The position numbers were made by a program, and so were the translations under genes. Below, piece after piece: positions 28,651-29,031 of a stretch of 64,000 nucleotides of DNA (the first letter of the stretch is position 1; each line of letters starts with the position of its first letter). The notes beneath the pieces were generated by a model. That model was not told where the DNA came from and ran no database searches. It saw only the letters and a program-made list of their open reading frames with translations. Origin of the DNA: Oligoflexia bacterium (GTDB taxonomy: Bacteria > Bdellovibrionota > UBA1018); assembly GCA_903895855.1 (NCBI GenBank), contig CAITVN010000194.1:18093-82092 (forward strand), read 5' to 3'.

Positions 28651-29031
28651 CCCGACGTTGCCTACGCAAATTTCATCCATGCTGCTCTCATCTTTTACCG
28701 CACTCAGAGTTAGGCCTCACTGTCAGACTCCAGCGTTGATGAAACAAGATCCGCAGACACCTGTGCTTCTTTTTAATTTCGGGTCTGGTAGAAACTGACC
28801 TGCTTTTTGGGCACGTCATCCATGACTCGCCCGCATCGCGCTTTGACGCGCGAACGCATACGCTTGCGGGAGACCTCAAAAACAGGTCAGTTTCTACCAG
28901 ACCCGAAATTAAAAGGCTTTTCAGGTGGCGAGGACTTTGTTTCATCAACGCTGGAGTCTGACAGTGAGGCCTATATCAGATTAGACTTAAATGAGACTGG
29001 CATGGTTGGAATTTGCATAGGTAACGCTGAC
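28651..29031. repeat. Palindromic element 2 (~381 bp): perfect 32-bp inner arms and 37-bp middle arms, diverged outer arms, GC-rich core
   Basis: 28771-28802 is the exact reverse complement of 28883-28914; 28711-28747 is the exact reverse complement of 28937-28973; 28651-28691 vs 28991-29031 about 30/41 identical as inverted repeat. Confidence 0.92.

Follow-up and report, generated by a model that had tools for sequence, protein, structure and literature searches.

We found that the palindromic element E2, at positions 28646-29036 of the window (the whole stretch of 64,000 nucleotides that was analysed, taken from a 5.37-Mb, 244-contig Bdellovibrionota MAG), is probably an old copy of a non-autonomous, MITE-like family. 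According to this reading, to which we assign a probability of about 0.72, the copies were inserted in trans by DDE-type transposases, their arms are kept perfect by DNA-level copying, and the conservation of their junctions reflects recognition of the folded form.

E2 had been described from the sequence as three nested arm segments, and these coordinates and identities proved correct to the base. The inner and middle arms are exact reverse complements over 32 and 37 bp, the outer arms are 73.2% identical (about 73% had been claimed), and the non-matching spacers measure 23 and 22 nt, as predicted. An independent repeat search recovered the same arms and reported just four inverted-repeat pairs across all 64,000 nucleotides, of which E2 and the neighbouring element E1 have two each; the number of perfect 32-bp inverted repeats expected by chance in 64 kb is about 1e-12. 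Secondary-structure prediction, which had been suggested as a check, gave -135.7 kcal/mol for E2 as single-stranded DNA, compared with -51.3 +/- 4.1 kcal/mol for shuffles (z = -20.6), and the same comparison for E1 gave z = -15.4. Two overlapping ORFs called at E2 (86 and 99 aa) were judged by eye to be spurious. The total size is ~390 bp, and the two ends resemble the family terminal repeat with p values of 0.001 and 0.0025 against shuffles; the 73%-identical outer arms are decayed terminal repeats of the E2-type family. The parts of E2 are as follows.

28646-29036, unstranded: E2 as a whole, limits approximate as the ends are decayed; both can be aligned to CAATGGCGTCAGGTTAAGAAATTTCATCC, the terminal repeat of the family
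28651-28691, unstranded: left outer arm, decayed terminal inverted repeat; partner 28991-29031, 73.2% complementary
28711-28747, unstranded: left middle arm, perfect 37 bp; partner 28937-28973
28748-28770, unstranded: left conserved non-palindromic segment, ATCCGCAGACACCTG core; 82% mean identity among copies, arms 70%
28771-28802, unstranded: left inner arm, perfect 32 bp; partner 28883-28914
28803-28882, plus strand: tip, conserved branched junction; covariance model R1, 85.3 bits, G000:C194:46895-46974; covariation
28883-28914, unstranded: right inner arm, perfect 32 bp; partner 28771-28802
28915-28936, unstranded: right conserved non-palindromic segment, CAGGTGGCGAGGAC core; 92% mean identity among copies
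28937-28973, unstranded: right middle arm, perfect 37 bp; partner 28711-28747
28991-29031, unstranded: right outer arm; partner 28651-28691

The original prediction also paired E2 with E1 as similar in layout and unrelated in arm sequence, and this was right: E1 is built alike, on other arms. A single M10-like metalloprotease gene is flanked by E1 on one side and E2 on the other, the two being of differing types (window 27310-29036).

27310-27321, plus strand: E1 left direct repeat GTCAGTTCTGAC (target duplication), 12 bp
27322-27680, unstranded: E1 as a whole, 359 bp, the partner element named in the original prediction
27322-27342, plus strand: E1 left terminal repeat; 18/21 positions match the end of an IS1595-family element
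27434-27463, unstranded: E1 left inner arm, perfect 30 bp; partner 27534-27563
27463-27534, plus strand: E1 tip, conserved branched junction; covariance model R2, 95.2 bits
27534-27563, unstranded: E1 right inner arm, perfect 30 bp; partner 27434-27463
27660-27680, minus strand: E1 right terminal repeat; 20/21 positions match the end of an IS1595-family element
27681-27692, plus strand: E1 right direct repeat GTCAGTTCTGAC (target duplication), 12 bp
27800-28627, plus strand: M10-like metalloprotease gene, between E1 and E2 (PF00413, E 5.3e-6)
29090-30364, plus strand: glycosyltransferase family 9 gene, downstream of E2 (PF01075, E 6.2e-27)

Sequence searches with E2 and with E1 each returned numerous dispersed copies in their own genome. 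Using covariance models built from the two tips, R1 (E2-type) and R2 (E1-type), we counted 50 tips spread over many contigs, 19 of them E2-type and 31 E1-type. The view of E2 as a discrete palindromic element, the second of a like-built pair, is thus supported, with both members belonging to multi-copy dispersed families of the same genome that have terminal repeats and target duplications. From the outside inwards the elements consist of a terminal repeat or outer stem, a conserved non-palindromic segment, an inner stem and a conserved branched tip. Identity among E2-type copies is 85% in the tip, 82-92% in the segments and just 68-70% in the arms; the two arms of any one copy are complementary to each other over 30-50 bp, though their sequence differs from copy to copy. 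What the family has in common is therefore its architecture, the non-matching segment and the tip, and not the arm sequence, and E2 is an eroded sibling with a terminal end unlike that of E1. A further E1-type element, with perfect arms of 41 and 37 bp, lies 8.2 kb ahead of the window start (G000:C194:9801-9872). An artefact of assembly or chimerism, which might be suspected in a MAG of this many contigs, has next to no probability: it is refuted by the copy number, fifty independent copies having a consistent architecture and differing arms, and by the relatives, some of which are in single-contig genomes.

The tip is a junction composed of hairpin B on the 5′ side, stem C and hairpin D, to which E2-type tips add a 3′ mini-hairpin E; in E2 itself hairpin B is GTCA-TCCA-TGAC, with the loop TCCA, and stem C is CCCGCA/TGCGGG. 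Alignments revealed both-sided changes in hairpin B of both tip types, as well as in stem C of the E2-type and hairpin D of the E1-type, and the covariation score was reached by none of 500 shuffles. The E1 tip can be aligned with the E2 tip around CGCCCGC...GCGGGAG. The non-matching segment of E1-like elements contains two small covarying hairpins, whose loop usually includes GGA, and its two sides read TTCCTGCA-AGCGGATGCG and TGCAGG-CAA-GCAGGAGC; its counterpart on the complementary strand of the E2-type tip is CTCCCGCA-AGCAGGATGCG and TGCGGG-CGA-hairpin B. This likeness between segment and tip was significant for some of the pairs tested only (p from below 0.002 to 0.74). E1-like elements therefore resemble a stack of two copies of a single junction module, separated by long stems. 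The E2 non-matching segment is conserved among copies; as a full second junction module it was rejected, the likeness being convincing in E1-like elements and not clear in E2.

Long perfect palindromes are normally unstable in bacteria, and selection on RNA pairing would make G·U outnumber A·C among imperfect pairs. The arms of 40 elements contained 3006 Watson-Crick pairs, 65 G·T, 51 A·C and 100 transversion pairs, with no significant excess of G·T over A·C, and the arms of relatives had 12 G·T and 17 A·C. Two copies (L024 and L136) carry their tip in inverted orientation with respect to the outer segment. Template switching between inverted repeats is known to have two outcomes, homogenised arms and an inverted spacer (PMC8604942). 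The near-equality of G·T and A·C together with the two flips points to templated correction at the DNA level rather than to selection on RNA pairing, and provides strong circumstantial evidence that a DNA-level process maintains arm identity; templated correction would then be the cause of the perfect arms.

The same counts bear on the unlikely alternative that the elements encode a structured RNA, possibly with CsrA-binding GGA-loop hairpins, whose palindromes are kept by selection on RNA folding. The helices do covary, the small hairpins usually have GGA exposed in their loop, and this genome has a CsrA gene; yet G·T pairs are not significantly above A·C, the stems of 30-50 bp are perfect Watson-Crick, and E1-like elements carry GGA on one strand in the outer module and on the opposite strand in the tip. 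Rfam had no match to E1 or E2 at E up to 1, and for the tips of relatives it returned nearby tRNA plus sub-threshold chance matches only. A point for such an RNA is that three genomes (G099, G115 and G118), all from one Bdellovibrio-like genus, apparently have the tip at a common position, judged by similar flanks, on arms that differ and are perfect.

The ends of the copies point to DDE transposition. E1-type ends read TGATTAGGCCTTTAGCTCAGG and are flanked by GTCAGTTCTGAC on both sides of E1 and by GTCAACGGTGAC at L128; the duplication measures either 12 bp or, if the terminal repeat is taken to extend further, 8 bp. A relative, G017 (locus L237), has a complete 981-bp IS with identical 21-bp ends that match the E1 terminal repeat, flanked by GTCATCGGGGAC, a repeat of the same kind as at E1. 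It encodes a 312-aa transposase of the IS1595 family (PF12762, E 7.5e-24; NF033547, E 4e-51), and its common sequence with E1 consists of the ends only, about 26 bp. E1 thus has the testable features of a MITE, IS-matched terminal repeats and a target duplication. At L237 (1835-1861 and 2834-2860) the IS1595-family element lies within a target that is palindromic once its two flanks are joined (CAATGTGTC-N6-GACACATTG), and parts of this target recur at other insertion sites.

E2-type ends (CAATGGCGTCAGGTTAAG) are conserved among copies and different from the E1-type. Their copies are flanked by 10-bp duplications of the form NNNYTARNNN, exact at L013 (GTATTAGCCG) and L014 (GGTCTAATGG) and near-exact at others. 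These duplications at sibling copies serve in place of the empty-site comparison that had been suggested as a check on E2. At L009, L016 and L022 the stop codons of the two convergent neighbour genes both fall within the duplicated YTAR. The two stops overlapped at the original site, so that after its duplication each gene retains one, which makes it a neat example of a landing site where insertion does no harm. By approximate, ORF-based counts, 24 of the 37 classifiable copies lie between convergent genes, compared with 9 of 49 neighbouring pairs (18%) in the window (P about 6e-10). This distribution, with copies often spanning stop codon to stop codon, is what would be expected of bidirectional transcription terminators or insulators held between convergent genes by selection. 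We consider this improbable, as the stop-codon-containing target duplications account for the position as harmless insertion; moreover, whichever strand is read, the tip stem is preceded by a T run and followed by an A run, whereas an intrinsic terminator has them the other way round, and E2 lies in a tandem and E1 in a divergent spacer.

Several candidates for the helper were examined. No IS1595 transposase was found in this assembly, and the helper for E1-like copies may have been lost or left unassembled in this genome. For the E2-type end, a search for a helper IS among 58 relatives gave 3-mismatch matches only, at control level. CAATGGCGTCAGGTTAAG may resemble IS4/IS231 ends; an IS4-like transposase was rejected as helper, since the ends at the three PF01609 loci of this genome do not match. 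A ~340-aa HNH endonuclease family (weak N-terminal DUF222, C-terminal PF01844) is expanded through the phylum, with at least 20 copies here. It was rejected as helper: the family occurs in 128 of 143 genomes, and ~40 other HNH loci showed no association in tip searches and inverted-repeat scans. Tips around two HNH genes in G095 were judged incidental, and at L192 an element lies 3.8 kb from an HNH gene. A phage or plasmid origin was likewise rejected, as there was no match in the plasmids searched or in viral contigs, the latter searched by one exact pattern only.

Across the sampled phylum (143 genomes including this one, single-contig genomes among them), R1 tips were found in 14 genomes and R2 tips in 8. 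The arms that bear the tip in relatives are perfect but unrelated, and no terminal repeats were recognised there. At 4 of 33 scanned loci the arms are abutted or overlapped by the 3′ end of a tRNA gene.

L088, 1608-1682: tip at the 3′ end of tRNA-Arg
L104, 1355-1446: tip at the 3′ end of tRNA-Ser
L117, 1592-1668: tip at the 3′ end of tRNA-Pro
L125, 1401-1478: tip at the 3′ end of tRNA-Pro

The arm takes in terminal bases of the tRNA at L104 and L125. At three loci of G040 (L095, L104 and L112) both flanks hold partial tRNA-Ser-like sequences, GTTCGAATCCCTC...CTCCGCCA, beside hairpins, like degenerate tRNA-derived repeats. In G095, 22 tips occur on contigs C42, C46, C50 and C52, many tightly clustered and in both orientations, whereas the copies of this genome are single and dispersed.

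A folded, strand-asymmetric junction that is conserved across the phylum on unrelated arms, with no terminal repeats, would also suit a new kind of single-strand DNA mobile element, in which a hairpin-reading recombinase or a tyrosine (HUH) transposase acts on the junction, as in attC or REP, and terminal repeats were acquired secondarily. The genome has seven Y1 transposase genes, and Y1/RAYT transposases were considered as helper. They were rejected: none of the six loci examined was adjacent to a tip or had meaningful sequence in common with the elements. Since target duplications and IS-matched ends indicate DDE transposition for the copies of this genome, we regard such an element as rather unlikely. 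More tentatively, it is possible, if doubtful, that the Bdellovibrionota have an undescribed system for mobility or maintenance that reads hairpins and uses the branched junction as its recognition unit, and whose elements grow or nest by repeating this unit along the palindrome, hitch-hike on unrelated IS ends and also settle at tRNA 3′ ends.

For the MITE-like family that we favour, the proposed course of events would be as follows. The element, putatively non-coding, would fold end to end as a single long hairpin, and DDE-type helper transposases acting in trans on the terminal repeats would insert the copies: an IS1595-family transposase would move E1-like copies, and another transposase, leaving 10-bp NNNYTARNNN duplications, E2-like ones. 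The stems would then drift, a mutation in one arm being copied to the other through template switching or arm-arm recombination. A DDE transposase needs no conserved interior, so junction conservation is not explained by that mechanism alone, and DNA-level correction does not by itself account for it either; we infer that the folded junctions are kept because something reads the fold, the likeliest candidate being a protein that binds the hairpin in its extruded or single-stranded form. Against the MITE reading stand the decayed ends of E2, the lack of a recognisable target duplication in its flanks, the failure to find an IS1595 transposase in this assembly or a helper for the E2-type end in the searches above, and the tips of other species, which have perfect arms but no recognised terminal repeats and in four cases lie against the 3′ end of a tRNA.

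With ~fifty long palindromes that have their own arms and the same junctions, this genome offers a natural experiment on inter-arm copying versus selection on folding, in which tip flips and rare mismatches serve as readouts of palindrome maintenance. It also raises the question which protein, if any, reads a folded junction conserved across a phylum of predatory bacteria. In the open-access literature searched we found no description of such elements in Bdellovibrio.

Among known systems, integron attC sites have a conserved structure, non-conserved self-complementary arms and strand-asymmetric unpaired bases, all of which recur here; however, our elements are 2-4 times longer and bounded by terminal repeats with target duplications, and unlike attC cassette arrays the copies are dispersed between ordinary genes on many contigs. 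With IS1595-family IS (ISXO2-like transposase, PF12762) E1 has its terminal repeat and type of target site in common, as the G017 IS exemplifies, but E1 has no transposase gene and its interior is unrelated. REP/REPIN and TIR repeats, which are associated with RAYT or TIRYT transposases (PMC3733652), are likewise palindromic and intergenic and favour positions downstream of or between convergent genes. The elements described here are much longer than REP/REPIN and had no link to the Y1 genes examined (six of seven loci); and whereas REP/REPIN have a short stem of conserved sequence with a GTAG or CGTC tag, here the stems vary and the junction is conserved. Closest are the bacterial MITEs, which include NEMIS, RUP, ERIC and Nezha (listed in PMC3733652): like them, the elements are multi-copy, putatively non-coding, strongly folding and next to genes, with terminal inverted repeats and target duplications, and E1 has a helper-type IS with the same ends. 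They differ from MITEs in their length (about 360-400 bp, compared with 70-300 bp), in their several stacked perfect stems of a sequence that varies by copy, and in conserved branched junctions that are common to elements with unrelated terminal repeats and found through the phylum. The family works like a MITE, and by its stacked perfect stems and common junction module we regard it as structurally new among bacterial MITEs.
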